From the NCBI RefSeq assembly GCF_014230055.1, contig NZ_JACHVA010000101.1, forward strand, positions 124,001 through 188,000: a stretch of 64,000 bases of DNA, read 5' to 3'. The first letter of the stretch is position 1, and each line of letters opens with the position of its first letter. The notes under the pieces are model-generated. The model ran no database searches, had not been told where the DNA came from, and saw nothing but the letters and a program-made list of their open reading frames with translations. Both the position numbers and the translations under genes were made by a program. Below, in pieces: positions 27,501 through 47,544 of the stretch. Source of the stretch: Puniceicoccus vermicola (GTDB lineage Bacteria; Verrucomicrobiota; Verrucomicrobiia; Opitutales; Puniceicoccaceae).

Positions 27501-27854
27501 GAGGCGACGCCGCGCAATGAGCCCGCATTCACCCAAGAAGCACAGGAAGGCTGGCGCACGGAATCCCTTCCGGGCTGGCTGACGCAGGGGGACTTACTGG
27601 CTCGGCTGGGTCCTGTTTTGAACGTCCGTTCCGATACGTTTACGATTCGTGCCTATGGGGAAACCCGTGACCCGATTACCGATACACCCACCTCCAAGGC
27701 GTGGTGTGAGGCCACCGTGCAGCGTGTGCCGGAGTTTGTCGATGTCGACGCCGACTCGCCCGAGACTCCGCTTGCCAGCTTGAACGGCCCCGCCAACGCC
27801 GAATTCGGTCGGCGTTTTGTCCTCGTCGACTTTCGTTGGCTCGCAGAACTCTAG
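24579..27854 (+). CDS. Verru_Chthon cassette protein A-like (pilin-like N-terminus)
   Basis: 1091 aa. The N-terminus RRECDSGFALVVALSLMAFV is a pilin-like leader with a Gly-Phe junction and a hydrophobic helix. It continues ARSTALLAMQNALGELQKHAGRDQRVSA, the signature of the Verru_Chthon cassette protein A family, known as a large helix-anchored protein from Verrucomicrobiota. Most of the protein is extracytoplasmic. Near the C-terminus FTIRAYGETRDPITDTPTSK and WCEATVQRVPEFVD are also typical. Canonical cassettes hold A, B, C and D; here only A is recognisable, followed by an unrelated secreted protein. The role is unknown; secretion or a surface structure is the usual guess. Confidence 0.82.
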   Translation: MIFRRQRRECDSGFALVVALSLMAFVLLLLLSLSSLISVERKSVAITTNELQARSTALLAMQNALGELQKHAGRDQRVSAGASILDTDPETMAVEWGGEEFEEEYWTGIWDENGQLKTWLVSGNEGLSPADADFVSPVDEVVNGASFYDDDSVQAPLVLIEQGAYAFWVGDEGVKAKLPLLQGATASTSPLASAQKVEVSLMTDLDWLDGSSVSPGELEKVVTTETMKLLGSTPDQVASLDAHRHDLSHYGYGLLTDPVEGGLKKDLTLALFDGSDLPSGQIFEPVGGGAPSLTDPGGPLWGQLQSWAQAGSSAVNSDGSANVRPATDVQTGIFPVVTQMQFYVAPRYVKDTDAQTLRVYLEIYPAITLWNPYDRPLTGNDFKIDIGRNFWDYSKASPEYNHYNSTFYAWKLTLWDSTGASEEYNHQSTQKFPSAGAVYGAMHFDLGSVRLNPGESMVFSAPAGNGSMDIQTTGYSYYPLAPGFRPTAYYSLETDVERPYDPADPDSEDYEFVLAAWRTITLSLRLRNGDDILQQVFWLGGVQEATPARTALLELGSTDILVNPKGVVGVKSVRNFTDSLGNAGEDESIQWLAHQNPRGGSQGLIPIFLYNETPLNIQTSHILNPSFYASSYLNGYEYDFGLTNIGNGLSVDSATIDETVLFETPPGRDRLHGVGQLMHAPLYYSGADVSRADAANSENKNDTANRLRWWRFDNSMPAYAVGNSEADPRIPLDALFVDWNSGLYDTAWTTTYAMVEGRHYDHSYLLNRSLWDGYFFSALPNVTSRTSGNSRVVALDETRTSVMTGDEAAAEFMIDGAFNINSTSEEAWRAVLGAFFGVEVESSATDASPFLRVHDNPGDLFDAANDDSEDEPAYHGYRALTEEQIANLARQIVKQVKWRALGRDRPFTSMADFVNRDPTAAAPSGLGDADAFRLRGALSSAIAAADQISTVDAGELGIAPADAVINEALSESAYEATPRNEPAFTQEAQEGWRTESLPGWLTQGDLLARLGPVLNVRSDTFTIRAYGETRDPITDTPTSKAWCEATVQRVPEFVDVDADSPETPLASLNGPANAEFGRRFVLVDFRWLAEL

Positions 27855-27882: not shown

Positions 27883-28644
27883 ATGAATGCCCCCCGTTTT
27901 CATCCGATCTGGTTGCTGCTCCTGACGTTCTCAATTCTTTCCGTGGAAGGTTCCCGCGTTCTGCCGTTTCAGGTCTACCTATGGCCCGGGGGGCCGAACC
28001 CGAATATGGAGGCAAGGTTGAGGGCGCAGGCGTCTTCGACGGATTACGACTCGATGGTCATGGTCGAGTATGTGCCGCCCACGATTCAATTCAGTCCGAC
28101 CGGGGGGGAGGAAGTCGAAACGATCCGGGCTGCGGAAAGTCGTCTCTCGCCCGTCTACCGCTATGAGGGAGAAGGGCCGTTGTTTTTCTTTCGGGAGATC
28201 CAATCGGGCGAAGAAGTGGTTCGCCGTGTTCCTTTGGGATCGGTTGTCGTTCCGGAGACGATCGAAAGAGCGCTGCTCTTGTTCATGCCCAACCCGACGA
28301 GTCCCGATACTTTCAGGATCTATCCGATCGACAACTCCCTCTCGAAAACCAAACCGGGAGAAGCCTGTCTCCACAACGTGACTCAAAGCGAGATCGGCTG
28401 CCTATTCAATGAAGAGCAAGTGCTGCTCGGCCCCGGAGAACAGAAAATCGTCTCAATCGGTGCCTCGGAGCGCATTACGATTGTGGTCCGAATCGCCGCC
28501 CAGGATGACGATGGAGACTGGAAGCAACGCCATGCCAGACAACTCTCCGTCCAGCCCGACGATAGCTTGACGATTCTAATCTACAACAAACCCGAAAAGG
28601 CCAACGCCTTCCGCATCTTGAAATTGGAGAACCCAAAACAGTAG
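27883..28644 (+). CDS. Secreted protein of unknown function in the Verru_Chthon module
   Basis: 253 aa. The signal peptide is MNAPRFHPIWLLLLTFSILS to about VEGS. The remaining sequence is predicted mostly beta (for example FQVYLWPGGPNPNMEARLRA, RALLLFMPNP, ERITIVVRIAAQDDDGDW). I do not recognise a family. It starts 28 bp after the Verru_Chthon A-like gene, so the two are very likely cotranscribed and may work together. It lacks a PEP-CTERM or pilin signal, so it could be periplasmic or released. Confidence 0.7.
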   Translation: MNAPRFHPIWLLLLTFSILSVEGSRVLPFQVYLWPGGPNPNMEARLRAQASSTDYDSMVMVEYVPPTIQFSPTGGEEVETIRAAESRLSPVYRYEGEGPLFFFREIQSGEEVVRRVPLGSVVVPETIERALLLFMPNPTSPDTFRIYPIDNSLSKTKPGEACLHNVTQSEIGCLFNEEQVLLGPGEQKIVSIGASERITIVVRIAAQDDDGDWKQRHARQLSVQPDDSLTILIYNKPEKANAFRILKLENPKQ

Positions 28645-29833: not shown

Positions 29834-29906
29834 CCTGTGTTGCAACTGTTATTTGCTTCCTCGGGTGGATTGTTCATAGTGGGTGTGCTTGACGAATTGG
29901 ATTTTT

Positions 29907-32000
29907 ATGAACACATTCATGAACAAAATGATTTTTGTATATTCTATGTCTGCCCGCGGTCTCTGCCTTGCTGTGGCAGGGGTCGCATTTTTTATCGCCA
30001 TGGTTAGTGATTGTTGTGCATCGGAGAGAGAAGTGGGCGCTTCGTCGTCGCAGTCTTACTACGCCAGCCGGATGGATGAACTCAAGCGACGAGCCGAGGC
30101 GGATCCTACGCTCCAAGCCAAGATCGATTCCACGCTTGAGTTGGCACGAGCGATCGTCCGGCGGCCAATCGTCGAGCGGGCCAGTTCGCTGGATGAGCTG
30201 AAAAACCCGGACGGACGTCGCCTCGGCACGATCGATGGGCGTACTGGGAATCTGGAGGCCGCCGTCCCGGAAAAAGCCGAGATCTTCGCTCTGGCCATGG
30301 CGGACACCACGGCAACGGGTATCATCATTGATGAAATGCCTTTGGTCGCCAGTGCCTATCGCCTGACGGGCGATAAGTCATTTCTTGACTACGTCATTGC
30401 CCAGATCGATGAATTATGTACCTGGGAGCCTTTGCAACGGCCGGGTTGGACGCTGCTCAAGCCCAGCAGTGTATTGCCCGCTGGCGGTGACGGTGTCTGG
30501 CTGGCGACGGGGCAGGGGCTTCTCGCCCTTTGCCAAACGCTCGATGTGTTACCTCCGGATTCTTTGCCGGAGTCCACTCAAGCTGCGGTGCGTGCCTTGC
30601 TGGATCGTGAGATCGGCTTCATTGTAAAGGATTGGGCCGACGAACGTCCCTGGTACGTGCGCAAGCAGGCCGTGGGTTCGAATCAATGGGTCGTTCCGGC
30701 GTCAGGGCTGGTCGCCGCTAGCGTGGCCGCAGGTAAAGACAGCTATCCGGAAGCCTACCGGCTGGGCATCGACAGCCTGCTCAAGACAAAGAACTCGCTC
30801 GGCCCCGATGGTTCGGTTTCCGAAGGTATCGTGTATGCCGCCTATTGGACGGTGCCGTATTACGCCATGGCTGCTATCGCCGCCCGGGACGCGGGCGACA
30901 CTCGTCTATCCGACGCCGCGTTCTTGAAGAATTTCCCACTCTGGTACGTGCAGTCCTTTCAGCCCGGCGAGAGTATCATCAACTGCTTCGATGGTTACGG
31001 CGGCTCCCGCGGGATCTACCACGTTTTCACGCCCCGTCTGGTGCGTGTGAACGCCCTGGTTCCGAACCCTTACATGACTTGGCTCATCCGAAATGAATTC
31101 GCCGACTGGATCCAGCCGGGCTTTTTCAGTCTGCTCGCCTGGAGCATCCCGCCCAGTGAGGCCAAAGAGCCCCCGCTCTGGGGGTCTTACGAGCGGGCGC
31201 GCTGGGTCGTGTGGCGCAGCAGTTGGACTGACGATGCTTCCGGCGTGTGGGTGCGCGGCGGGGATGTGCGCGACGGTCACTCGCACCATGATCGTGGGCA
31301 CGTAAATTTTATCCTCCATGGAAAGCCTCTCCTGATTGAAGCGGGCACGCCCGGTTATGACGAACCGCTTAAGCGCGAGAGTTACGATTCGGTGGTCGGA
31401 CATAATGTGCTTCAAGTCGGCGACGAGATCTATCCGAAAAAAGCCGCCGCACCCACCTCCGTCATCCGACTCGATTCAGATGGAGGCGAGGTGACCGTCG
31501 ATGCGGGGCAGGGGTATCCCGGGGTGCAAAGTTGGGAGCGAAACATCATCTGGACGGCGGACGAAATCAGCGTGACCGACCGGATCGTCCCGAAAAAGCC
31601 CGAGCATGTGAAACTACGTTGGCATTTGGCTTCCGAGGAGTCTCTTTCCATTCAGTCTTCGGGAGGCACCGTCACGACGGCCTCCCTGCCGGCCGGGGAG
31701 ATCGGTTTCGCAGGTTGGATCGGCAAGCTGCCGGAAGGCTCTGCCTGGACGCCTCCCGACTTCGATGTCGTGCACACTCCGGCTGCCGTGATCACGGTGA
31801 AGTCGGACCAGCCGGTGACGGTTTCCCAGGAGAAAAATTACGACCATACGATGAAATTCCGCCAGTGGCGGCACGAGCACACGACCTTGCTTGTGGACTC
31901 TGTCGAGCCCGTCGAAGCCATCACTATTTTCAGTCAATTTCGGAGGCCGCCTGTGGCATCCGGATCCTCCACCACCAACCCCATGTCGATGTTTGATTAA
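29907..32000 (+). CDS. Secreted heparinase II/III-like polysaccharide lyase
   Basis: About 697 aa from the ATG at 29907; a GTG at 29883 and ATGs at 29919, 29928 and 29946 are alternatives, and all leave the hydrophobic signal segment ARGLCLAVAGVAFFIAMVSD intact. The N-terminal half is an alpha/alpha toroid (PWYVRKQAVGSNQWVVPASG, GPDGSVSEGIVYAAYWTVPY). The C-terminal half is a beta-sandwich with the heparinase II/III signature GHSHHDRGHVNFILHGKPLL. Such enzymes cleave uronic-acid polysaccharides by beta-elimination. It sits next to its own LacI regulator, and a mutarotase-fold secreted protein follows after 62 bp. The substrate (alginate, ulvan, heparinoid or other) is open. Confidence 0.8.
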   Translation: MNTFMNKMIFVYSMSARGLCLAVAGVAFFIAMVSDCCASEREVGASSSQSYYASRMDELKRRAEADPTLQAKIDSTLELARAIVRRPIVERASSLDELKNPDGRRLGTIDGRTGNLEAAVPEKAEIFALAMADTTATGIIIDEMPLVASAYRLTGDKSFLDYVIAQIDELCTWEPLQRPGWTLLKPSSVLPAGGDGVWLATGQGLLALCQTLDVLPPDSLPESTQAAVRALLDREIGFIVKDWADERPWYVRKQAVGSNQWVVPASGLVAASVAAGKDSYPEAYRLGIDSLLKTKNSLGPDGSVSEGIVYAAYWTVPYYAMAAIAARDAGDTRLSDAAFLKNFPLWYVQSFQPGESIINCFDGYGGSRGIYHVFTPRLVRVNALVPNPYMTWLIRNEFADWIQPGFFSLLAWSIPPSEAKEPPLWGSYERARWVVWRSSWTDDASGVWVRGGDVRDGHSHHDRGHVNFILHGKPLLIEAGTPGYDEPLKRESYDSVVGHNVLQVGDEIYPKKAAAPTSVIRLDSDGGEVTVDAGQGYPGVQSWERNIIWTADEISVTDRIVPKKPEHVKLRWHLASEESLSIQSSGGTVTTASLPAGEIGFAGWIGKLPEGSAWTPPDFDVVHTPAAVITVKSDQPVTVSQEKNYDHTMKFRQWRHEHTTLLVDSVEPVEAITIFSQFRRPPVASGSSTTNPMSMFD
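29914..29925. promoter_or_regulatory. Near-copy CATTCATGAACA at the lyase start
   Basis: Matches 10 of 12 bases of the palindrome at 29803-29814. It lies at the first codons of the heparinase-like gene, next to another TGAACA half site. With the upstream palindrome it could allow repression by looping; this is inference. Confidence 0.4.
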
Positions 32001-33246: not shown

Positions 33247-34404
33247 ATGATTGAAAGACCAGAATGGGTAGGTCGGATCGAAAAGGCTTGGAAAAAGGTG
33301 TCGGTGGTCTGGCTGACGGGTGTACGCCGTGTGGGCAAAACGACGCTCACCCGGCACTGGGGAGGTGCACACTATCTGAACTGCGACCTTCCACGAGTCC
33401 GGAACCAACTTGCCGACCCTGAGCTGTTTCTTGGGCAAATACCCTCCGGAATCGTGATCTTTGATGAGATTCATCGCACCGCCGATCCCGCCGAAATCCT
33501 GAAAATTGCCGCCGATGAGTTTCCGCATTTGAAAGTTCTGGCCACAGGTTCGTCAACCCTTACGGCCAGTCGCAAATTTTCGGATACCCTGACGGGGCGC
33601 AAGCGTTCCGTCCATCTCCTGCCGGTCCTCGCATCGGAGATGGATCGGTTCGGCATCCCGGATCTGACCTACCGACTCCAGCGCGGCGGCCTCCCCCCCG
33701 CGTTGTTGTCGGACGAGGTCGACCTCGAGTTCTATTCCGAATGGCTCGATTCGTATTTCGCACGCGATATCCAGGAACTCTTCAATGTCGGCAAACGCGG
33801 TGGATTTCTCCGGCTCTGCGCACTCGTTCTGCGACAAAGCGGAGGGTTGGCGCAGATAACTTCCTTTGCGAAGCATACAGGCCTCAGCCGACCGACGGTG
33901 ATGAGTTATCTCGACATCCTTGAGGCGACTCATTTCGCGCGAACGCTCCGCCCGTATCACGCGGGAGGACGAAGGGAACTCCTCGCCCAGCCGAAGATCT
34001 ATGCCTTTGATACGGGATTCGTGGCTCACCAGCGGGGATGGGAAACTTTGCGACCGGAGGATTGCGGAGGGCTGCTTGAGCATTTGGTCCTCGATGAATT
34101 GGCGGCATCCCCGACCCTCCGCGAGGTCCACTTCTGGAGGGATAAGCAGGGGAGGGAAATCGATTTCGTGCTCCCGCTGTCCCCCGGCAACGTCGTCGCG
34201 ATCGAATGCAAGTGGAGTGAAAGAGCGTTCGACACCCGTAATCTCGACGCTTTTCGGGCCAACTATCCCGATGGCGAGACGATTCTGATGACTGGCGGGA
34301 ATGAGGCGGGTTTGCTGCGCCGTTTCGGCGACAAGCAGATCCGAGTCTGCGGAATCCGTCATTTCGCTTCTTTGATCGATCAGATCCAAGCCGATTCTCC
34401 GTGA
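33247..34404 (+). CDS. AAA ATPase with C-terminal DUF4143 domain
   Basis: 385 aa. Walker A is in GVRRVGKTTLTRHW (about residues 25-38), and the Walker B-like segment is IPSGIVIFDEIHRT (about 65-78). A sensor-like LATGSSTLTASR follows. The C-terminal DUF4143 nuclease-like region includes LDSYFARDIQELFNVGKRGG, PTVMSYLDILEATHF and the segment EIDFVLPLSPGNVVAIECKW, which has the E/D...E-x-K pattern of the PD-(D/E)XK fold. These proteins are common, often mobile, and of uncertain role. It has an AT-rich promoter region (33180-33246) and no evident functional tie to the glycan genes around it. Confidence 0.88.
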   Translation: MIERPEWVGRIEKAWKKVSVVWLTGVRRVGKTTLTRHWGGAHYLNCDLPRVRNQLADPELFLGQIPSGIVIFDEIHRTADPAEILKIAADEFPHLKVLATGSSTLTASRKFSDTLTGRKRSVHLLPVLASEMDRFGIPDLTYRLQRGGLPPALLSDEVDLEFYSEWLDSYFARDIQELFNVGKRGGFLRLCALVLRQSGGLAQITSFAKHTGLSRPTVMSYLDILEATHFARTLRPYHAGGRRELLAQPKIYAFDTGFVAHQRGWETLRPEDCGGLLEHLVLDELAASPTLREVHFWRDKQGREIDFVLPLSPGNVVAIECKWSERAFDTRNLDAFRANYPDGETILMTGGNEAGLLRRFGDKQIRVCGIRHFASLIDQIQADSP

Positions 34405-34629: not shown

Positions 34630-37503
34630 TCATTTTTTCGAAAGCGTGTGGCGTATGATTTCGTTGTAGCTGACGGGTTTGAACGAGATCCAAGTCCATT
34701 CCCCATCGCTGCCGATGGGGATGACCAGGCGCTCGATTTCTTTTCTTGCGGAGGTGGCCAACTCGCCGGGTTTTCCTGCGGCCCAGTTGATTCGGACGCA
34801 GCCGGTATCTGTCGTGAACACAGCGCCTCCCGGGCTCGCGATCTGAATCCGGGTGCTGTCCATATTGCGATACAGCGGCAGGTTGACATAGCATTCCTGA
34901 ACCGGTTCGTGAGCTTTGAAGCGGACGCCGATTTTAAGCGGTGATTCCGAATAATCGTATCGCCAAGTGAGGGTGCCTTTCGGCGATTTCACTTCGGAGG
35001 TGATGGTATGCACATTGTTTTGCGCGTTGCTCTCCGTCGATGCCCGTTCTTTTCCGGAATGGAAGAAGTCTCCGGATGGAGTGGTCCCGTAGATGGCGGC
35101 AAAGGTTAGATCCTCGGGTTTCGTTTGATGTTTCGACGTCGGATCCCCGGACGGAATAACGGAACTGAGGAATGTTCCGGTGCCGGGGGTCCAGAGTGCG
35201 GACGGTGCGCCCCCGGTGATACTGTTGTGGTTCTTGACCTTGGTGCCGGCCACGTCACTAAAAACCATACCGTAGATGCCGTTTTGATTCCATGCCAGCA
35301 AACCGGGGAGTGCCCAGGTTGCGCCGTCCTCTTCGTAGGGGAGTCGGTCCGGTTCGACGATCTTGGGCTGGGTGTAGCATTTGACAATGCCGGACACCCA
35401 GGTGCCACCACCGGCGTCATAGCCATCGGCACCCTTTTCGAGTCCGTTTTCAATGGATTGGCGGATCCAGCCTTCCCGGTTGGCGGCGAATGAAAATGTG
35501 CCCGCAATGCCGAGGCCTCGTTCAGGGGCCGGAGTCAGGGCGAAACGAGCCGCGGAGAGTGGAAAATCGGACTTTGTCATCAAGGTGCCGGGGTAGCCCA
35601 AGTCTCCAATGTAGGCCGATTTTCGTGCGTTCATATGATTCGGACCGGCAAGACTGCCATCCGGTTGTGGCAGCCAGAAAAAGCTATTGAAGCGGAGGTT
35701 GCGTTGGATCGCGTCCTCGATCAGGGCGAGCAGTTCCGGATCGGCGTCCGGGAGTTCGCGGTATTTGTAATAGGAGATGGCGACACAGAAGGAGTTGAGC
35801 TTGTCGTAATTGCCGTCGGGGCCGTAATTTTCCAGGTAATAGCCCGTCGGATGGATGCCGAATTTGGAATTCGGACCATAGGTATTGCCATAGTAGGCAC
35901 GTGCCTGCCGCTCGAAGTATCCCAGGAAGCGCTTTTCGCCAGTCGCCAGATACGTATCCAAGTGCGCGAGCAGCATGTGCGACCATTGGTTGGATTGGTA
36001 CGCCTGATAGTCGGCGATCTTATCACCCAAGGCAATCAAGCCTTGGCGCCAGACTTCGCGCACCTCCTCATCGAGCAGCGGCTGGAGTTCGAGGAAGGGC
36101 TCCGCGAACGAACCTCCGTAAGCAAAGAAAATATGAGTGATGGGATAGACGCTCTTCAGTAGCGACCCCTCCCGCATGAGATCGTCTCCCTGCAGGTTGC
36201 TGATGTTTACTAAAGAGCCGAGTGCGGCTCGTTTGGTTAATTCCCGACTGTGGTAGGCCGGATTGAGGGGAGAATCGAAAGTGACGGCTCCGGCGAAGGC
36301 AGCGGGATCGAAGTTCGTTGCCCCTCCGATGGGGCGAAAGTCCTCTTCCGAACTTGGCGCTTCGCGAGGAGTATCCCGGGTGCTGCCGAAATTGAGATCC
36401 ATCGGATCCAAATACCGGTTCTGTTGCTTCACCTTGAAATCGATGGTGTTCAAGGCACCATACTTGCCGAAGCCGAGGACATGATAGGGCAGATTCGTCA
36501 AGTCGTCGGGTATCGTTTGGGGAAATTCAAAGGATACATCACGGTCCAAGCCGGATGCGATTTCCGCCGCCAGTTCCCGGGCGCGCGCTTGGAGTGGTCC
36601 GGCGACCCATTTGCCCAGGCTCTCGACCATGCCGCCCCTGAGCCTCGCGGCGGCCTCCGGCGAAGGGCAGAGCAGACCGGGGACGCCCTCCACAGTCAAG
36701 ACCCCGTTGAACTCTTCGGGGAGCGTGAGCTGAAGCACTTCCCCTGTGGGCGTGGGACGGGGGATCAAGCGTCCGGCGCGTCTTGTCGGATCCGATTCCA
36801 CTTCGGCTAAGGTGTCCCCCCGTAGGTTCAGGATCCGGGCTCCCCGGGTGTTTCCCCGGTCGATTCCCACCATCATCAGGAAGGCCGAAGGAGGTGTCCA
36901 AATGAAGGCTTTCCCGGAGACGCCGGGGGTGCTGTCGGTCGTGCCGAGGGACATCTCCCCCCGAACCCCCCAGATCTCCGTTTCGGGGAGACGGAACTCG
37001 ATCAAATCGTTACTGCGCCCGCCGGAAAAGGAGACACGCCAAATGCCGGGCGCGGCATCCTTTGCGGTGAGTTCCCGCACGCTGATGGAATCCGGCTGAT
37101 CCGTGAATTCGGCGTAGTCGGCGAGGGAGCCATCCGGTGCGATCAGGCGGGCGAGGGCGATCGGCGTATAGGGCTCGTTTTCCTGGTTGGAGATATTGGT
37201 TTGGCGTGCAACGACTACGCGGACCGTCCCGTCCGCATCCGGTTGCAGTTCGGCCAGCATGCCGGCCCCCCGGACGGAGCCGCCGAGCGTATAAATCCGG
37301 GCTTGCTGGGCGACGGGATATCTCAGGGAAAGGGATTCAGAAACAAGGGAATCGCCTTTGAGTGTGAAAGTGTTGTCACCGTAGACGGCAGGACCGCCAT
37401 CTTCCTGCGCATTCAAGTGCGCATAGGGTGAAGAGGTCGCCGCGATGGTGCTAACGCCTAGAATCATTGCGGAACCTAGAAGAGATTGAATCAGGATGTG
37501 CAT
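34630..37503 (-). CDS. Large secreted protein with predicted alpha/alpha-barrel, possible polysaccharide lyase
   Basis: 957 aa with signal peptide MHILIQSLLGSAMILGVSTI to about AATS. The N-terminal 300 residues are beta-rich. A central helical part holds YQSNQWSHMLLAHLDTYLAT, YYGNTYGPNSKFGIHPTGYY and NYDKLNSFCVAISYYKYREL, reminiscent of toroid lyases. The C-terminal part is a beta-sandwich (TFAAIYGTTPSGDFFHSG, NNVHTITSEVKSPKGTLTWR). That layout fits alpha/alpha-toroid polysaccharide lyases, but I cannot place it in a known family. Its start lies only 18 bp after the end of the GH39'/LacI' relic, so it may be driven by a captured promoter. Confidence 0.6.
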   Translation of the reverse strand: MHILIQSLLGSAMILGVSTIAATSSPYAHLNAQEDGGPAVYGDNTFTLKGDSLVSESLSLRYPVAQQARIYTLGGSVRGAGMLAELQPDADGTVRVVVARQTNISNQENEPYTPIALARLIAPDGSLADYAEFTDQPDSISVRELTAKDAAPGIWRVSFSGGRSNDLIEFRLPETEIWGVRGEMSLGTTDSTPGVSGKAFIWTPPSAFLMMVGIDRGNTRGARILNLRGDTLAEVESDPTRRAGRLIPRPTPTGEVLQLTLPEEFNGVLTVEGVPGLLCPSPEAAARLRGGMVESLGKWVAGPLQARARELAAEIASGLDRDVSFEFPQTIPDDLTNLPYHVLGFGKYGALNTIDFKVKQQNRYLDPMDLNFGSTRDTPREAPSSEEDFRPIGGATNFDPAAFAGAVTFDSPLNPAYHSRELTKRAALGSLVNISNLQGDDLMREGSLLKSVYPITHIFFAYGGSFAEPFLELQPLLDEEVREVWRQGLIALGDKIADYQAYQSNQWSHMLLAHLDTYLATGEKRFLGYFERQARAYYGNTYGPNSKFGIHPTGYYLENYGPDGNYDKLNSFCVAISYYKYRELPDADPELLALIEDAIQRNLRFNSFFWLPQPDGSLAGPNHMNARKSAYIGDLGYPGTLMTKSDFPLSAARFALTPAPERGLGIAGTFSFAANREGWIRQSIENGLEKGADGYDAGGGTWVSGIVKCYTQPKIVEPDRLPYEEDGATWALPGLLAWNQNGIYGMVFSDVAGTKVKNHNSITGGAPSALWTPGTGTFLSSVIPSGDPTSKHQTKPEDLTFAAIYGTTPSGDFFHSGKERASTESNAQNNVHTITSEVKSPKGTLTWRYDYSESPLKIGVRFKAHEPVQECYVNLPLYRNMDSTRIQIASPGGAVFTTDTGCVRINWAAGKPGELATSARKEIERLVIPIGSDGEWTWISFKPVSYNEIIRHTLSKK

Positions 37504-38534: not shown

Positions 38535-41500
38535 TTAGTTGCTGTGCAAGTTTTCTTGAAGCTCTTGGAGATCGATCCAGGCGTGAAGCTTCCCCGGGTC
38601 AAAGCTCTGGCTGACTTCCAGATCTTTTTGAGCTCCCTCGGTGTCCCCAAGCGCCCATTTTGCTTTGCCAGTGAGGTATTTAAAATGAGCCGTGCGGGCC
38701 TCACTTTCCTGTTCTACGTAGGAGATGAAGAAGGGCGTTGTCCCAAAGAATCCGGCACTTTGCTCCTGCAGGGATTGGTTCCAGTCTCGAAGGCAATTGC
38801 GTAGTATTCGCTCGGCACGGGCGGATTGTCCCAGCGCTTGCAGGGCTCGGGCTTGGTAAACGGGAAGTTCGGGGAGGTGCATGTTCGAGAAGTAATCGAT
38901 CTCGAGCTTGAGAATGTCTTGGTAGAAGGGGAGTGCTTCCTCGCGGCGATCCAAGGCTTCGAGGCATTGTGCTTCGAAAATCTGATGTGGCACCGCCAAG
39001 TTTCACTCCAGAGGCCGGTTTTCACGCTCTGTGGCAGGTCTTGGGCGTCCCGAAAATGTTGCAGGGCTGCGACATAGTTGCCCTTTCGAATCTAAATCCG
39101 TCCCATCATGTGGTGAGAGAACATGTATTGTTCCACAACAGCGTGCTCTCCCCCTTCACAGGGAACGAAGTTATAAACGTTGAGCAGAGCGAGGGCACCC
39201 TGAGGGTCGACAGCTTGGTTGTGAGCGCGGGCCCATTCGAGAATCAGATCGTCCCGGATCGTCTTGGTTGGGTCGACGTGACTCTTGAGAAACTGTAGGC
39301 GCTCGGACGGTGGGAGCCCCAACTTGGTCATGACGTAGGCGATTTCGTAGGTTAGCTGCTCGTCTCCGGGGGCACAGGCCAAGGCCTTGTGCAATAAGGG
39401 GAGAACCTCCAGCTTTCGGTCGAGATGGCTGAAGTAGGCGACGGCCAGATTTCGATGGATCGGAGCAAAGCCGTCATTGAGTGACTTCGACTGTTCCCAG
39501 TGGAAGGCCGCTTCGTCGTAGCGGCACTTATCATACAGAAGGCATCCCAAGTAGTATTGGGCTTTTGCGGTCTGCTGAGGATTGTGCCCAATGACGGCTT
39601 CCAATATCGCCATTTCTTCCAGGCGGAAAGGGTAGGTTTGTGGATCGTTGACCGCTTCCCCGCGAGCGATGGCACTCTCCGCGGCTCGGTTTTTACCGAG
39701 CTCCAGCTCGATTCCGGCAACGGTGTAGTATACCATTGGGTCAGCTCCTTCGGGCAGGGCTTCCAGAAGATCTTTTGCTTCGTTAAGGAAACCAGCTCCA
39801 AGGAGTTCAAAGGCCAGATCCAGTGAGGTTTGCGAGGGCGAACTTTTCAGGGTGTTGACGAATGTTGTTACGTCATCGCCTTCGGCGAGCGTGCGTAGGT
39901 AGCGGACCATCCAGTGAAGCGGATCCTTCTGAAGCGCTATGTCTATGCGCTGTCGTGCACGTTTGATTCGACCGGTTTTCAGGTCGGCTAGAATCGTCAA
40001 GGACGTGGCCAGAGGGTTGTCTGAGGCATGATCGAGGGCGGCTTCGGCATGCTCAAGCATGCGATCATATTCGCAGCGGATGCCGTCGATACTAGAGATC
40101 TGAGTCAGCGCTTTGGAGCGCATGGCTTCATCCCAACTCGCTTTGTAGAAGGTGTCGTAGGCTGAGTCGGTTTCGCCTAGGGCCTTCAGTACAAGCCCTA
40201 AGGTGTAGAAGATCTGTCCGTTGCATGGATTGCCGTTGTGTCGAGTGAGCACATCGCGTGCGTGTTCCAGTTGTTCTCGGGCTTCGCGGAAGCATCCTTG
40301 TTTATAGCGCAAGGCTCCGAGGTCAATGAGGGCCGGTGCATAATCCGGATCGCGTTTGAGGGCGGTTTCCCAATAGACCTCCGGAAGGTCTTTAGGGCTG
40401 CGATATTGGTCCACATGGGTGCCGGCGAGATGGAGCTCTTGAGCACTGTGGAAATAGGACGGGCCGGGGAGGTCGGTCCATGGTTCCGGAATTTCTTCGG
40501 CCACTTTTGGGGTAGTCTGGTAGAACGCGATGCGATTTCCCTCCTTTGTCAGAACCTCGATCTTTAGGGCTTCCGGATGGATTGGCTTTTCGATCCTCAA
40601 CTCGAGCGCTTCTGCGGGGCTGAGATCGCGTTGAATGTCGAGGATACATTTGTCCTCAGAGGTCAGGCGTATATTCGCTCCTTCGAAGGCGCGTGTCGAC
40701 AGAATGGATAGGCGTGCATGCTCCTGATCGAGATTGAGTGCGCACTGGGTATTCGCGTAGGTAGGGGCGCCGATCTTATGGATGGGATACCAGAACTGGG
40801 AGAACTTCTTCGTTTCGTAGGGCTTTAGCCAGGCAAAGTCGGGTTGGTTGTCGGTATAGCTGCCGGCCATAAGCTCCGCATATTCGCCATCCGTGTCGGT
40901 CAGTGCGCGCTCCCAGGTTTGGGAGAGCTGGTTGTATGCCCAGGTAAAAAGCTTCTTACCGGGCGAAACGTGATGGTTGGCTACGTGGACGACGCCGCAT
41001 TCCTTTCCGTGGTCGTAGCCGCCGAAGAAGTCATATTGGGAGGCGGCCGAGAAGTAGGAGGTCGGGCTCTTGGTGTTGGCGTGCTGCTGGATGTCGATAT
41101 CTTCACCGAGGCGGATGCCGTTATAGGTGCCAGAGTTCTTCGGCCAGGTGCCAACGGAGCGGTGGTAGTGAAAGTTCACATAGGAGACATCCTTAGGGAA
41201 GAAGATCTGGTAGTTTTCGTTGACCGGCACCGCGGCGTTCTCCCACCAGAGGAAAGAGCGTGTGAGAGGGGTTCGGTTGCATACTTGAACGCGAGTTTCG
41301 AAGATGGCTTCGCCGGGTGCCAGTCGGATTCCGACCATTCCTTTCATCCTTTCGATGGGGTCGTGTTCGGAGAGCCAGACGGTTACCGCGCCATCCTCGC
41401 CGTGCTGGATCTCATAGTCTACCGGCATGAAGGTCGAGGGGCGGTGATGGTAGGGCCAGTTAAACTCGACTCCCCCCGAGATCCAATTTCCCAGAGCGCC

Positions 41501-41815
41501 AATGAGCGCGGGTTTGATGACACTTTGCTTGTAGAAAAAGTCGTAGCCCGTGGTTTTATCAAGAGCGGAGAAGATGCGTCCTCCGATCTCCGGAAGAATC
41601 TCGATTTTGAGAAACTCGTTTTCGAGACAGATAATCTCGTATTCCCGGTCGACCTTCTCCGCGCGTAGAGTTTTCAGGACGACCCGGTTAGGGTAGGGAC
41701 GCCCACTGGTACGTTGATGCACTCGGTTTTCCGCGAACATGGGGAGCTCCTCGGCTTCCGCCTGAGGGTAGGTCGGGATGGCACGACGAAGGACTCGGAC
41801 AGAGGTGGAATTCAT
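38535..41815 (-). pseudogene. DUF5107/TPR protein gene, broken by a TAG stop and a frameshift
   Basis: From the ATG at 41813-41815 (MNSTSVRVLRRAIPTYPQAE) about 907 codons run to a TAG at 39092-39094. The N-terminal DUF5107 beta-sandwich has EIICLENEFLKIEILPEIGG, GGVEFNWPYHHRPSTFMPVD and FLWWENAAVPVNENY. TPR-like repeats follow (ALIDLGALRYKQGCFREARE). After the TAG the same frame continues with KGNYVAALQHFRDAQDLPQS, a normal TPR helix. Near 39003 the coding signal shifts to another frame (PHQIFEAQCLEALDRREEAL) and ends at 38535. The full gene would encode about 1,090 aa. The truncated protein may still carry the DUF5107 domain. It is divergent from a GntR/LacI-type regulator. Confidence 0.8.
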
Positions 41816-41890
41816 AGGCTGAAGATGTTTGAACAGGTCTGGTAAGCTACAGGTAGATTTTGACCTAAATTCGGGAATTGTTAGAATTGA

Positions 41891-41903
41891 ATCGGATTCC
41901 GAT
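41891..41903. promoter_or_regulatory. Palindrome ATCGGATTCCGAT in the DUF5107/regulator gap
   Basis: A 6-bp inverted repeat around one central base, 24 bp before the regulator start at 41928. It is a candidate operator for that regulator. No second copy was found in the window, so the evidence is only symmetry and position. Confidence 0.35.
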
Positions 41904-41927
41904 GAGAAAAGTTGTATGAACAAGTGA

Positions 41928-42974
41928 ATGGGGGAAATGCGTGAATCGAATTCTCAGAAAGCAAAGGTGATTGCCGCTTTAGAGCAAAAACTGGCTTCTC
42001 CGGATCTGGATCTGTCGCAAGCATTGCCCAGTGAAACAGAGCTGCAGCGTCGGCTTGGTGTCAGTCGAGGGACGGTGCGGGAGGCGTTGAGCGACTTGGA
42101 GCGCCGCCACTTGATCGATCGGGTGAAAGGGAAGGGAACCTTTCCGAGGCGGTTGGAGGATCGTTCGTCGAAGCCTGTCGCGTTTTTGCTGCGGGAGCCG
42201 TGGAAGGTGAGCAATTTTCACAATTCGGAACTTCTCCGTGGGATGCAAATAGCGGTGGCAGAGCAAGGAACCGATCTCCTCATTACGAGTCGAACTCCTG
42301 GCGAGTGGACGTCCGAGTTTCTTCACTCTCTGGCGGGGGTGGTCGTATTACCCCGACTGCTGGTTGACGGTGATCTCAGCGTATTGCGCCGCAACCGGAT
42401 CCCTTTCTGCTTGGCGATGGAATCCGACCTCAGTGGCCCGACCATTGTCGATCAAATCGAAGAGGCTGCCTTTGCTTTGGCGGAGGGGCTTATTCGGCAA
42501 GGGCATCGTAGTATTGCTCTCCTGAGTGGACATTTCGAGCACTCGGATCGACTGAAGAAGAGAGGCATGGCTCGGGCTGCCGAGGAGGTGGGAATCGATT
42601 TCGCGGCTTGGCCGGACTATTGCACCAATTATGATGTCACTTTGGCATATGAAATTTGTCAGGATATTCTGCGGCAATCCAAGCGGCCGACCGCCATCAT
42701 TGGATTTGACAACGGCTTGGCTGTTCAGGCGATTCGAGCGGCCAGGGAAGTAGGGGTACGAGTGCCGGAGGCCCTTAGCGTCGTCGGCTTTGGGGGAAGG
42801 GATTTTAGTGACCTGATAAATCCTCCCCTGTCGAGTGTGAACCTCCGTGGAGAGGAAGCGGGAAAGAGGGCGGTGCAGTTTCTGTATCGAGCTGACCCAT
42901 CCCAGGTCGAGCGGTTGCGAGTCGGATATGATCTGGTCTGGCGGGAGAGTAGTGGAAATATTTCGGTTTCATGA
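41928..42974 (+). CDS. GntR-type HTH regulator with LacI-type sensor domain
   Basis: 348 aa. The N-terminal winged helix has LPSETELQRRLGVSRGTVRE, ALSDLERRHLIDRVKGKGTF (GntR family). The C-terminal part is a LacI-like sugar sensor: SIALLSGHFEHSDRLKKRGM, AIIGFDNGLAVQAIRAAREV and LSVVGFGGRDFSDLINPPLS. This hybrid architecture matches AraR-like regulators. An ATG at 41937 is an alternative start. It is divergent from the broken DUF5107 gene, so its main target may be lost. The effector is unknown. Confidence 0.88.
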   Translation: MGEMRESNSQKAKVIAALEQKLASPDLDLSQALPSETELQRRLGVSRGTVREALSDLERRHLIDRVKGKGTFPRRLEDRSSKPVAFLLREPWKVSNFHNSELLRGMQIAVAEQGTDLLITSRTPGEWTSEFLHSLAGVVVLPRLLVDGDLSVLRRNRIPFCLAMESDLSGPTIVDQIEEAAFALAEGLIRQGHRSIALLSGHFEHSDRLKKRGMARAAEEVGIDFAAWPDYCTNYDVTLAYEICQDILRQSKRPTAIIGFDNGLAVQAIRAAREVGVRVPEALSVVGFGGRDFSDLINPPLSSVNLRGEEAGKRAVQFLYRADPSQVERLRVGYDLVWRESSGNISVS

Positions 42975-43460: not shown

Positions 43461-44927
43461 TTAGCCGTTGCATCCAACACGGGCAAGCTGCTCAGCCGGG
43501 GCGTCACATTCGCGCATGAGTTTCGCCATAAGCTGACTCAAACGTTCAACCACCTCAGGGTCATCTAACGGAGTAGATTGAGTAGGATCTTCCTGCACAT
43601 CATAGAGGTATCCTTTCCTTCCAAAGGAATCGCCTTGCTCAATATTGGTTTGTCCAATCTTTAGCGTATTCATGCCCTTGGTGAAGGAGAATGGTTTGGC
43701 GAGGGTCGCCGTCTCGAGGTTTGGCTTAGCGCCCCTCATGGTGAGAGGGAGCAAAGTATATAGATAAATATCTCCGGTTTCCTCAAGGGCTGAGTAATAG
43801 ACGTAACGCCCGTCCGTTATATTCATACGCTGGCCATGATAACCAAAAATTCCGGCATCCCGGACGGGTGTGTCGTTTTCAATCGCACCTGCCAAATCCT
43901 TCCCCGTCATGTCAGGTGTCGAATCCAATCCAAAATATCCCAGCAATGTTGGGCCTAAATCGATGGATGGTTGCACGAGAGACGAGCGTCGTTTACCCGC
44001 AGTATCTGGGCGACGTGGGTCGGCAATAAAGAATGGGGTATGCGCAATTTCCTCCCAAGTGATTGGCCAGTTTTTCGCCCACTTACCATGTTCACCCAGC
44101 AAGTAGCCGTGGTCGGTCCAGACAATCAACAGCGTGTCTTTCCACATGTCATGGCGATCCATGGCATCCAGTATTTTGCCTAGGCTGGCATCGCATTTGG
44201 AAACGAGGGCTGAGTAATTGTTTTTCGCGACCTGAGCTTCCTCTGGCGATTCCGTAACATCCGCATAGTCGGGCCAGTCGAACAATGCACCGTCAATGTC
44301 CGGTGAGGGATATTTTTTCTGCCACTCAGGATCGACTGTGAATGGCTCATGGGGGTCGAAGCATTCGATTTGTACGAACCAGTTGTCTTCCGTATTGTTT
44401 TGCTCAATGAACTCCAACCCCGCTTCAAATGTCTTCGACTGAGGGTAGTCTGCGTCGCAGTGGAGTTGTGCCCGATTTACCCAATCTGCACGACGACCTT
44501 TTCCGTTAATGTTCTTGGGGATCTCTGGTTCCTTGACCATTCCTTTCCACGGGTCGCCTTCCTGTCCGCGGAAAACCTCCCAGCTGGAATACTTCGTATG
44601 GTAGGTCGCTCCACCTTCTTCAAAGTAATGATAGTGGTCCGTGCAGAGGTGCGAATAGACCCCCGAGTCCCTCAGCATTGCAGGCACCGAATCATCGAAA
44701 GGCTCTATTGGTCCCCAGTTGCAATGCAGAAAATTAGGACGTCCCGTATGAAAGTCCCGGCGGGCCGGCATACAGGGCATCGAACAGACATAGCTGGTGT
44801 CAAAAGTCGTCGAGTGCTCAGCGAGTCGTTGAAAATTTGGCGCCTGAACATTGGTATTTGGATTGTAAGGGGGGAGCATGTGTCGATTCAGCGAATCGAA
44901 CATTACCATAATGCATCGTTTCATCAT
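43461..44927 (-). CDS. Sulfatase (alkaline phosphatase superfamily, Cys-type)
   Basis: 488 aa. The N-terminal RCIMVMFDSLNRHMLPPYNP carries the metal-binding Asp. The formylglycine motif is CMPARRDFHTGR (C-x-P-x-R, Cys at about residue 52). Further metal and active-site blocks are NWFVQIECFDPHEPFT, DTLLIVWTDHGYLLGEHGKW and RDAGIFGYHGQRMN. No signal peptide is evident, so it may act in the cytoplasm or need another export route. Activation needs a formylglycine-generating enzyme, which is not in the window. It is bordered on both sides by relic-containing gaps; a polysaccharide-sulfate substrate is inferred from the context. Confidence 0.9.
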   Translation of the reverse strand: MMKRCIMVMFDSLNRHMLPPYNPNTNVQAPNFQRLAEHSTTFDTSYVCSMPCMPARRDFHTGRPNFLHCNWGPIEPFDDSVPAMLRDSGVYSHLCTDHYHYFEEGGATYHTKYSSWEVFRGQEGDPWKGMVKEPEIPKNINGKGRRADWVNRAQLHCDADYPQSKTFEAGLEFIEQNNTEDNWFVQIECFDPHEPFTVDPEWQKKYPSPDIDGALFDWPDYADVTESPEEAQVAKNNYSALVSKCDASLGKILDAMDRHDMWKDTLLIVWTDHGYLLGEHGKWAKNWPITWEEIAHTPFFIADPRRPDTAGKRRSSLVQPSIDLGPTLLGYFGLDSTPDMTGKDLAGAIENDTPVRDAGIFGYHGQRMNITDGRYVYYSALEETGDIYLYTLLPLTMRGAKPNLETATLAKPFSFTKGMNTLKIGQTNIEQGDSFGRKGYLYDVQEDPTQSTPLDDPEVVERLSQLMAKLMRECDAPAEQLARVGCNG

Positions 44928-45965: not shown

Positions 45966-46190
45966 CTATCCCGGCAATTCCACCTTCATATAGATCGCAT
46001 CGTGCCGATTGTAGTCGAAGGCGAAGTGGAGGAAGATGCCTTCGTCGGTTTCCTCGATTTCACCATCGGGATAGGAGAGGGCGCCGGGGAAGGTGCAGAG
46101 GTCGCGTTGGTAGGACCAGGTCTTGAGGTCGTCGTCGGAAATCCAGACCGAGAGGGGATTACGGCCGGTCGGGCTATTGCGTATCCGTAT
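45966..46190 (-). pseudogene. C-terminal remnant of a second BNR/sialidase-like protein
   Basis: About 73 codons on the minus strand: NSPTGRNPLSVWISDDDLKT, WSYQRDLCTFPGALSYPDGE and IFLHFAFDYNRHDAIYMKVE, ending LPG and TAG at 45966-45968. The NRNPLSIWIS...YPDG...HFAYDYNR pattern belongs to sialidase-like beta-propellers. It begins within the last codons of the sulfatase gene (46174-47544) in another frame. The 3' part of a lost gene has therefore been joined to, or has replaced, the end of the sulfatase. Confidence 0.68.
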
Positions 46191-47544
46191 TGGGATAAGA
46201 CGCGGTCCGCTGACCGGAATTGCTGGATGGCGCGAATTTGATTTCTGCCGACGGTTCTCCGATTTCCGTCATTCTAGTAATGAGACGTCGGCGAAGATCC
46301 TCGCGAATGGCCGAGTGAGACTCGAGGTGAACGAGGTTGTCGAGTTCATAGGGGTCGCATTCCAGGTCGAAAAGATGGGATTCGGTGTAAACAGGGGCGG
46401 CACCTTTTGATTTGAATTCGAGGGCAGAGGTGACGACGTACTTCCAGCGATTCGTTCGGATGGCCCTTCCCGGCGGGAGGGAATTGTCTCCGAACTGGAT
46501 GAAGCTTTCCTCGGGCCAGCCTTTGGTTGCGTTCCTCGATAGCGGGAGTAGGGATCGCCCTTGAACATCGCCTGGGATTTGAACTCCAGCGGAGTCAAGA
46601 AGGGTTGGCATTAAGTCGACAAGACTTACTGCTTCGTTTCGTTCACCGCCTCCGTCCCATCCGGGGCCCCATATGGCGAAAGGGACACGGACGGAGGATT
46701 CATGTGCCGTTCGTTTGTATTCGTTATTTCTCGTTTTGAAGTGATTTCCGTGGTCGCTGATGAAAACAACGATCGTATTTTTGTCCAACCCCTCGGAGAT
46801 CAGGGCGTCCATCGTGCGTCCGAGTGCTTCGTCCAAGCGTTTGATCATGCCACAATATCCCGGCCAATGTTGTGCGCCGGTGCCTCCGAGGGATCTTAGG
46901 TCGGGCGGCAGTGGAGCGTCTCGATACTGTTCCTCGTAGCCTCGGGGGGCCGGATAGGAGTCGTTTGTGTTCTGGTGATGGGGTTCGATGTACGAATTAA
47001 ATAGCAGGAATGGCTTTCGGGATTCTTTCGGTTCCGAGGCGCGGTCGTAGAGGTAGCGGATCATGGCGTCGGTTTGGGCATCGACGCGGTAGCCCGGGAG
47101 TTGTACCTCCTGGTCGTTGACATCCCAGAGGCGGGCTGAGTAGGGCCCGCTGATGATCTCTGTGGCGTTGGCGGCGAGCCAATCTTGGTATCCGGCCCGA
47201 GACTCAAGAGGAACGGGACCCTCGTCTTTGGAGGGAGAAAGATGCCACTTCCCGATATATCCGGTGCGATAACCTCCGTCTGCGAGAAGTTCGGCGAGCT
47301 TCGGAGATTCCTCTTTCAAGCCAAGACCATTACGCCAGACTCCACTGGTCGTTGCGTATTGGCCAGTTTGTATGCAACTGCGGGCGGGGCCGCAGACGGG
47401 TTGTGGAGTGACGGCTTGCTTGAAAAAGGTTCCCTGTCGGGCGAGTCGATCAAAGTTCGGGGTGAGTCCGGATTTGTTTCCGTTCAGTCCGAGGGTGTCC
47501 CAACGCTGTTGGTCCGTGAAAAAGACAATGATGTTTGGTTGCAT
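46174..47544 (-). CDS. Sulfatase (Cys-type), possibly with altered C-terminus
   Basis: 456 aa. It begins MQPNIIVFFTDQQRWDTLGL (metal-binding Asp), followed by the formylglycine motif VCGPARSCIQTGQ (C-x-P-x-R, Cys at about 51). Further blocks are YIGKWHLSP, NTIVVFISDHGNHFKTRNNE and EESFIQFGDNSLPPGRAIRT. No signal peptide is seen. The last residues (SSNSGQRTASYPNTDTQ) overlap the sialidase remnant, so the original C-terminal end may be lost; the catalytic domain is complete. Upstream on the same strand lie the beta-helix and GH36-like genes, probably one operon attacking a sulfated galactose-containing glycan (inference). Confidence 0.88.
   Translation of the reverse strand: MQPNIIVFFTDQQRWDTLGLNGNKSGLTPNFDRLARQGTFFKQAVTPQPVCGPARSCIQTGQYATTSGVWRNGLGLKEESPKLAELLADGGYRTGYIGKWHLSPSKDEGPVPLESRAGYQDWLAANATEIISGPYSARLWDVNDQEVQLPGYRVDAQTDAMIRYLYDRASEPKESRKPFLLFNSYIEPHHQNTNDSYPAPRGYEEQYRDAPLPPDLRSLGGTGAQHWPGYCGMIKRLDEALGRTMDALISEGLDKNTIVVFISDHGNHFKTRNNEYKRTAHESSVRVPFAIWGPGWDGGGERNEAVSLVDLMPTLLDSAGVQIPGDVQGRSLLPLSRNATKGWPEESFIQFGDNSLPPGRAIRTNRWKYVVTSALEFKSKGAAPVYTESHLFDLECDPYELDNLVHLESHSAIREDLRRRLITRMTEIGEPSAEIKFAPSSNSGQRTASYPNTDTQ

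Follow-up and report, generated by a model that had tools for sequence, protein, structure and literature searches.

The gene, its protein and its relatives

The window (the whole stretch of DNA analysed, 64,000 nucleotides of the Puniceicoccus vermicola contig NZ_JACHVA010000101.1) carries on its minus strand an open reading frame (ORF) of 957 codons with an ATG start at 34630–37503. Its product, P0001, had been proposed in a preliminary description, made from the sequence alone and without naming the strand, as a candidate new polysaccharide lyase family with the layout of the toroid lyases. The ORF exists, and the plus-strand frame at the same position is interrupted by stops. Its length is far beyond chance: when the locus was shuffled 200 times by mononucleotide and read in three frames, the longest open frame of all had 272 codons and the longest per shuffle averaged 142. 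Base composition by codon position was similar to that of five neighbouring genes, and protein similarity at two other places (34–42 % identity) indicates that the ORF is coding. P0001 is likely to be a secreted protein, residues 1–21 having by eye the look of the signal peptide that had been described. The features of the gene are as follows.

34630..37503, minus strand: gene of the 957-aa protein P0001 (ORF and translation; relatives)
37441..37503, minus strand: likely Sec signal peptide, residues 1–21 (hydrophobic N-terminus, judged by eye)
36604..37314, minus strand: beta-rich N-terminal region, residues 64–300 (strands in the AlphaFold model)
35548..36606, minus strand: helical middle domain, residues 300–652, predicted alpha/alpha toroid (domain model, comparison with PDB chains, hhalign)
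35974..35994, minus strand: SNQWSHM, residues 504–510, with Asn505 (conserved in 34/35 aligned rows) and Gln506 (33/35)
35806..35844, minus strand: GYYLENYGPDGNY, residues 554–566, with Gly554 (35/35), Glu558 (34/35), Asp563 (35/35) and Tyr566 (35/35)
35623..35625, minus strand: Arg627, invariant (35/35)
34669..35346, minus strand: beta-rich C-terminal region, residues 720–945 (strands in the model from residue 804 on)
35272..35274, minus strand: Tyr744, nearly invariant (34/35; spacing compared with Tyr470 of polysaccharide lyase family PL33)

A paralogue, P0002, is located on the same contig about 98 kb away and is 42 % identical to P0001. The sole relative from a collection of 84,980 species, with 34 % identity to P0001, came from a Clostridia metagenome-assembled genome (goat caecum); these contigs were scanned with exact short peptide patterns, and the single relative is a lower bound. 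No relative was found on plasmids, nor on viral contigs either with P0001 or with query A2, which gave 50 pattern matches there. A single-protein search with P0001 among 132 genomes of chosen relatives (its own included) matched its own genome alone. With a three-sequence profile (P0001, P0002 and the Clostridia relative), matches were obtained in 21 of 387 genomes of the phylum, again including its own. In one family, a 21-row profile found matches in 13 of the 36 genomes searched; in one class it did so in 37 of 197, with E-values (E) below 1e-100 in 26 of these and with only part of the profile covered in several of the weaker ones. The P0001 family thus occurs more often in another class of the phylum than in the vicinity of the window's own genome, an uneven distribution that transfer or loss could have caused. 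P0001 and P0002 were sisters in a 25-row tree (100/99), in which long branches leave the other joins unsure.

Sequences were assembled into two profile sets, tier A (25 sequences) and tier B (10 sequences), with near duplicates and fragments excluded and with P0003 trimmed of its first 230 residues. Tier A was matched over its full length (hmmsearch over frames). Tier B showed the same order of matched pieces, with the motif stretch weakly matched in most rows (independent E-values 0.07 to 12; L022 excepted), so that residue counts for tier B lean on the MAFFT alignment. The tiers are related at the profile level (100 %), and tier-B frames directly adjoin tier-A frames at L005, L027, L044, L053, L054 and L056. 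Near and remote members of the family are thereby found side by side in several genomes, as if a working pair.

Residue conservation was counted over 35 aligned rows (25 tier A and 10 tier B, the rows not being mutually independent). Gly554, Asp563, Tyr566, Arg627 and Pro722 were present in all 35 rows, Asn505, Glu558 and Tyr744 in 34 and Gln506 in 33. L022, which carries Asp at positions 505 and 558, was among the exceptions at Asn505, Gln506, Glu558 and Tyr744. The seven nearly invariant polar residues are retained in relatives whose identity to P0001 is as low as 17–24 %. Both motifs quoted earlier were located, SNQWSHM at residues 504–510 and HPTGYYLENYGPDG at residues 551–564. As for the Asn, His, Tyr and Trp residues that had seemed conserved, Asn505 and Tyr566 proved to be so, while His509 and Trp507 are only partly kept; His509 is the commonest His in tier A (22 of 25 rows) and is replaced in all ten tier-B rows.

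A third group of sequences, L045 to L047, shares only profile positions 91–237 or 102–237 with the family. These are beta-helix proteins (PF13229), with L046 just under the cut-off (24.8 versus 25.9). This indicates that the N-terminal part of the P0001 family holds a portable module, which makes up the second half of the N-terminal region, at about residues 145–290 (estimated by eye). The module carried no Pfam label in these scans and is perhaps carbohydrate-binding.

Predicted fold, profile and active-site comparisons

The P0001 family is absent from every family library searched here, in agreement with the earlier failure to place it. No match of weight to P0001 was found in Pfam, NCBIfam or PHROGs, and none of 17 scanned full-length relatives passed a Pfam cut-off. 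Pfam models for heparinase II/III-like lyases (PF07940, PL12/PL21 type), for PL8 (Lyase_8) and for PL5 (Alginate_lyase) gave no match to P0001 at E up to 1, and PF07940 gave none in the 17 scanned relatives other than L045–L047. A match of P0001 to AdoMetDC_leader (E 0.091, 13.1 bits, cut-off 25) was regarded as chance, as were below-cut-off matches in the scanned relatives, among them those to TM1586_NiRdase (0.1–0.22) and KptA_kDCL (0.0086). PDB sequences searched with P0001 alone and with the 21-row profile returned only unrelated matches (best E 0.15 and 1.2), and lyases with solved structures (PL33, PL35, PL39, PL40 and others) did not appear up to E 10 in either phmmer or family-profile searches of the PDB sequences. 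A description of the family was not found in the literature searched (open-licence papers, few wordings).

AlphaFold models were made for full-length P0001 (three sequences) and for residues 279–652 (two sequences). The order of beta, helical and beta regions given in the preliminary description is visible in the full model, which is of low confidence. Residues 64–179 had jelly-roll-like structural matches (Z about 7, 99 residues aligned, 2.8 Å), and ten-residue blocks of the C-terminal region had predicted local distance difference test (pLDDT) values mostly of 30–76. Structure prediction and fold search had been suggested as a check of the lyase proposal, and in both models toroid lyases headed the lists. 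For the full model, nine of the 13 best Foldseek chains were PL33 (best E 0.0024). In VIA-align, which compares only the 1000 best Foldseek chains, lyases took the first 12 places of a list of 50 entries (Z 9.7 to 8.0), comprising eight PL5 entries, two PL35 GAGases, one hyaluronate lyase and one chondroitinase.

For the domain model, VIA-align listed 50 entries, of which the first 21 all belonged to PL17, PL5 or PL39; their Z ranged from 14.4 to 13.2, and 218–257 residues were aligned at 3.6–4.6 Å. Since, by the tool's own note, predominantly helical models can attain Z of about 14 even when they lack a clear match, weight rests on the uniformity of this top list and not on Z. Glycoside hydrolase family GH76 came next after the lyases (Z 12.7). 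In Foldseek, PL5 was first (E 0.18), with GH9 and GH76 chains intermixed. PL33 was missing from the 50 listed entries for the domain model, though it was the first Foldseek family for the full model, and no side is taken between the individual toroid families. Alg17c belongs to PL17 and AlgL to PL5. The other family labels of fold matches were taken from entry titles or from PMC12088678 (7FHU as PL5, 6JP4 as PL39 and the GAGases as PL35). On these models, it is fairly likely that the middle domain of P0001 is an alpha/alpha toroid as in polysaccharide lyases.

Profile comparisons by hhalign used reference sets of heparinase II/III-like proteins (29 of 30 loci, L088 excluded by hand), PL5 (20 of 20) and PL8 (20 of 20), and control sets of the non-lyase toroids GH88 (18 of 20 loci) and GH127 (20 of 20). 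Tier A matched the 29 heparinase II/III-like proteins with a probability of 67 % (score 52.6), rising to 80 % with the toroid only. With PL8, tier A alone gave 1.2 % for the whole sequence and 1.2–1.6 % overall, toroid-only comparison included; joining tiers A and B raised PL8 to 41 % (52 % toroid-only), with heparinase at 50 % (72 % toroid-only). The controls gave 19 % for GH88 (30 % with the toroid alone) and 20 % for GH127 (14 % with the toroid alone), and the GH127 match falls in the C-terminal part, outside the toroid. The heparinase set itself matched PL5 at 97 % and PL8 at 78 %, and PL5 versus PL8 gave 0.3 %. In a column-shuffle null restricted to columns with no more than half gaps, the maximum score in 240 comparisons (40 shuffles, two alignments, three families) was 23.8, versus the real score of 52.6. 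In a first null, which shuffled every column regardless of gaps (20 shuffles plus one reversal per pair), two shuffles of the joined tiers reached unexplained scores of about 133 (98 %), one with the heparinase set and the other with PL8.

Both the fold and the profile comparisons thus point to the toroid polysaccharide lyases whose layout had been recognized in the preliminary description. The heparinase II/III-like proteins, the best profile–profile match, have a toroid followed by a C-terminal beta domain, an order that is also predicted for P0001. In the hhalign alignments, Asn505 pairs with the Asn column of the heparinase II/III-like and PL8 proteins, and the GPDG of the P0001 family pairs with the DG motif that follows the Asn motif in the heparinase II/III-like proteins. 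However, no sequence-level match between these two families is obtained in Pfam or HMMER, and the P0001 family has an extra N-terminal beta region and is without the conserved C-terminal His. Among the entries listed for the domain model, the alginate lyases of PL5 and PL17 ranked highest in fold comparison (Z about 14).

Catalytic residues were compared with two published sources. According to PMC11848413, catalysis in PL33 depends chiefly on N238, Y291 and H444, which are topped by Y470, and orthologues of Y291 are the acid, the base or both in PL12, PL15, PL17, PL21 and PL39. Table 4 of PMC12088678 gives catalytic residues for 12 toroid lyases, with a His in all 12 rows. Asn505 and Tyr566 are 61 residues apart, inside the range of 53–63 for known toroid lyases (rows of that table having both Asn and Tyr, together with PL33), and compare with spacings of 59 in PL8 AC lyase and 63 in PL23. 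The PL39 Tyr carries different numbers (239 and 259) in these two sources, and the range stands without PL39. Tyr744 follows Tyr566 by 178 residues, versus 179 between Tyr291 and Tyr470 of PL33 (BtPL33HA), which likewise has the Asn. PL33 differs in its His444, described in PMC11848413 as invariant and important. In PL23, a His precedes the Tyr by eight residues (PMC12088678, Table 4), while Glu558 occupies that place in P0001. Alginate lyases have a conserved His at the neutralizer according to PMC12088678, whereas Asn505 is flanked by Ser504 and Gln506. Asn171-His172 of the PL5 enzyme PanPL (mutant names in PDB titles) can be likened to Asn505-Gln506, with a polar neighbour at the neutralizer. 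Taken together, the alignments suggest an active site of Asn-Gln, Glu/Asp, Tyr and Arg with a second Tyr.

Genomic surroundings

The following genes were annotated around the P0001 gene in the window.

24579–27854 and 27883–28644: 1091-aa protein whose N-terminus looks pilin-like by eye, and its 253-aa partner (neither with a Pfam match)
29883..32000, plus strand: heparinase II/III-like toroid lyase gene (Pfam PF07940, E 4e-17)
33247–34404, strand other than that of P0001: AAA_14/DUF4143 ATPase gene, adjoining the P0001 gene (Pfam)
39092..41923, minus strand: DUF5107 and TPR protein (Pfam)
41928..42974, plus strand: GntR-type regulator with a sugar-binding domain (Pfam)
43461..44927, minus strand: sulfatase with a CMPAR active-site motif (Pfam and motif)
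46174..47544, minus strand: sulfatase with a CGPAR active-site motif (Pfam and motif)

The window also contains GH39, GH71 and melibiase-type genes, a beta-helix protein and GntR and LacI regulators. The adjoining AAA_14/DUF4143 ATPase has no obvious role in sugar use. Both copies in this genome, P0001 and P0002, have a heparinase-like gene within about 3 kb with two frames between; the genome has nine PF07940 matches, and chance may account for the proximity. P0002 is separated from its heparinase II/III-like gene by a LacI regulator gene and the gene of a polysaccharide pyruvyl transferase, and a sulfatase is found farther on. The pyruvyl transferase gene (L175:13090–14451) directly precedes P0002, a hint of synthesis or of a pyruvylated polymer. 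The Clostridia relative is directly preceded by a sugar-binding-protein gene and two permease-like frames (permeases judged by eye). Among other relatives, a LacI regulator is found directly before two tandem tier-A genes in one and a DUF4962/heparinase-like gene near another. Of 30 neighbours scanned around P0002 and the relatives, 11 matched nothing in Pfam with E of 0.001 or better. The neighbours of P0001 family genes are the company of polysaccharide degradation, which does not fix the substrate.

The heparinase-like neighbour at 29883–32000 carries SNQW and GPDGSVSEG, strikingly like the motifs of P0001. No weight was given to this likeness as evidence: in a set of 31 heparinase-like sequences the pattern used missed 23, and the pair occurred in this one only. 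A BLASTP match between P0001 and this neighbour (E 0.026) was discarded, the aligned stretch being outside the toroid. A similar pilin-like pair also follows P0002, which gave the pair the look of a module linked to both copies. The link does not count as evidence, as frames related to the larger protein, about 30 in number, occur throughout the genome (67 matched stretches). The pair is reminiscent of Verru_Chthon cassettes, for which no model matched.

Proposed activity and alternative explanations

On balance, and with moderate confidence, we interpret P0001 as a secreted polysaccharide lyase with an alpha/alpha toroid and a beta-sandwich, the founder of an uncatalogued family with a variant active site. 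A variant and not a standard toroid lyase is proposed because the defining His was looked for and not found, whereas the known enzymes are matched in fold and in the Asn/Tyr pair. An anionic polysaccharide would lie in the cleft between the toroid and the C-terminal sandwich. Asn505, with Gln506, would neutralize the carboxylate of the +1 uronate and Tyr566 would act as acid and/or base in beta-elimination, with Arg627 helping to orient or activate. Tyr744 of the C-terminal domain may be a second proton carrier, in the role that His has in most known toroid lyases, and Glu558 and Asp563 may shape the site or tune Tyr566. The substrate would be a uronate-containing, perhaps sulfated, polysaccharide.

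Several results weigh against this interpretation. Confidence in the models was low (mean pLDDT 42 and predicted template modelling score 0.47 for the full model, 49 and 0.58 for the domain model), pLDDT was under 50 in both at the stretches with the proposed Asn and Tyr (499–506 and 540–571), neither model had a Foldseek match with E of 0.001 or better, and the domain-model Z can be reached without a match. The tier-A profile gave only 0.4 % with PL5 despite the PL5 fold matches. Tier B alone gave 0.1 % with heparinase, 7.5 % with PL8 and 0.1 % with PL5, which speaks against a direct lyase link from the tier-B side. The lyase score of 52.6 is only moderately ahead of the GH88 control (40.7), and GH88 is also matched at 41 % by the heparinase set. 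Tyr566 was not placed on the lyases' Tyr in the heparinase-like alignment, and no His is invariant across the 35 rows, whether in the C-terminal domain, shortly ahead of the Tyr or next to the Asn. Of the new family proposed in the preliminary description, the layout is supported, as is the lack of a described counterpart in the libraries searched; its lyase nature is what the missing His and the low pLDDT call into question.

In the main rival explanation, a rather unlikely one in our view, P0001 is an alpha/alpha-toroid glycoside hydrolase in which Glu558 and Asp563 would supply the acid and the base or water activator. Toroid hydrolases of GH88, GH127, GH76 and GH9 have the general helical architecture predicted for P0001 and conserved carboxylates, and the conservation of Glu558 (34/35) and Asp563 (35/35) equals that of Tyr566. 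The lack of an invariant His, the GH76 folds right behind the lyases, the mixing of GH9 and GH76 with PL5 in Foldseek and a GH88 score not far under that of heparinase all fit a hydrolase. However, the 21 best listed fold entries of the domain model are lyases, with GH76 below them, and the profile ranking favours heparinase II/III over GH88 and GH127. Nor would a hydrolase have an obvious need for an invariant Asn-Gln, Tyr and Arg at lyase-like spacing.

A uronate epimerase, or another non-cleaving enzyme on the lyase fold, would have the same fold and Asn/Tyr chemistry, PL33 being related to mammalian glycosaminoglycan epimerases according to the Significance section of PMC11848413. The pyruvyl transferase gene adjoining P0002 hints at such a role in synthesis, whereas P0001 is likely secreted and lies among degradative genes and the Clostridia relative lies behind a sugar-import gene; we regard an epimerase as improbable. 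About equally improbable is a non-catalytic carbohydrate-binding surface protein that has kept the toroid fold. The portability of the N-terminal module, found also on beta-helix proteins, and the frequent side-by-side placement of divergent paralogues agree with this, but seven nearly invariant polar residues at 17–24 % identity exceed what binding alone should keep. That the helical domain has some fold other than a toroid is the least probable explanation. It draws on the low model confidence and the lack of a significant Foldseek E-value, and is opposed by the agreement of two models and a sequence-profile method on toroid lyases.

Returning to the variant lyase, a broader and more doubtful proposal is that the near, middle and remote subfamilies, the remote often beside the near, form a large unrecognized lyase superfamily that dispenses with His and uses Asn-Gln, two Tyr and Glu/Asp instead. 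In such a superfamily, Asn-Gln would neutralize the carboxylate, the toroid Tyr and the Tyr of the C-terminal sandwich would carry the proton, and the Glu/Asp pair would do the tuning in place of His.

If P0001 is a lyase as proposed, it would represent a new family of polysaccharide lyases, distinct in its active-site variant and in its substrate. Proteins that carry no label in the libraries used here, and that are matched in 26 of the 197 genomes of one class at E below 1e-100, would thereby gain a name and a function. The family would also put to the test how far the chemistry of toroid lyases truly depends on their His.

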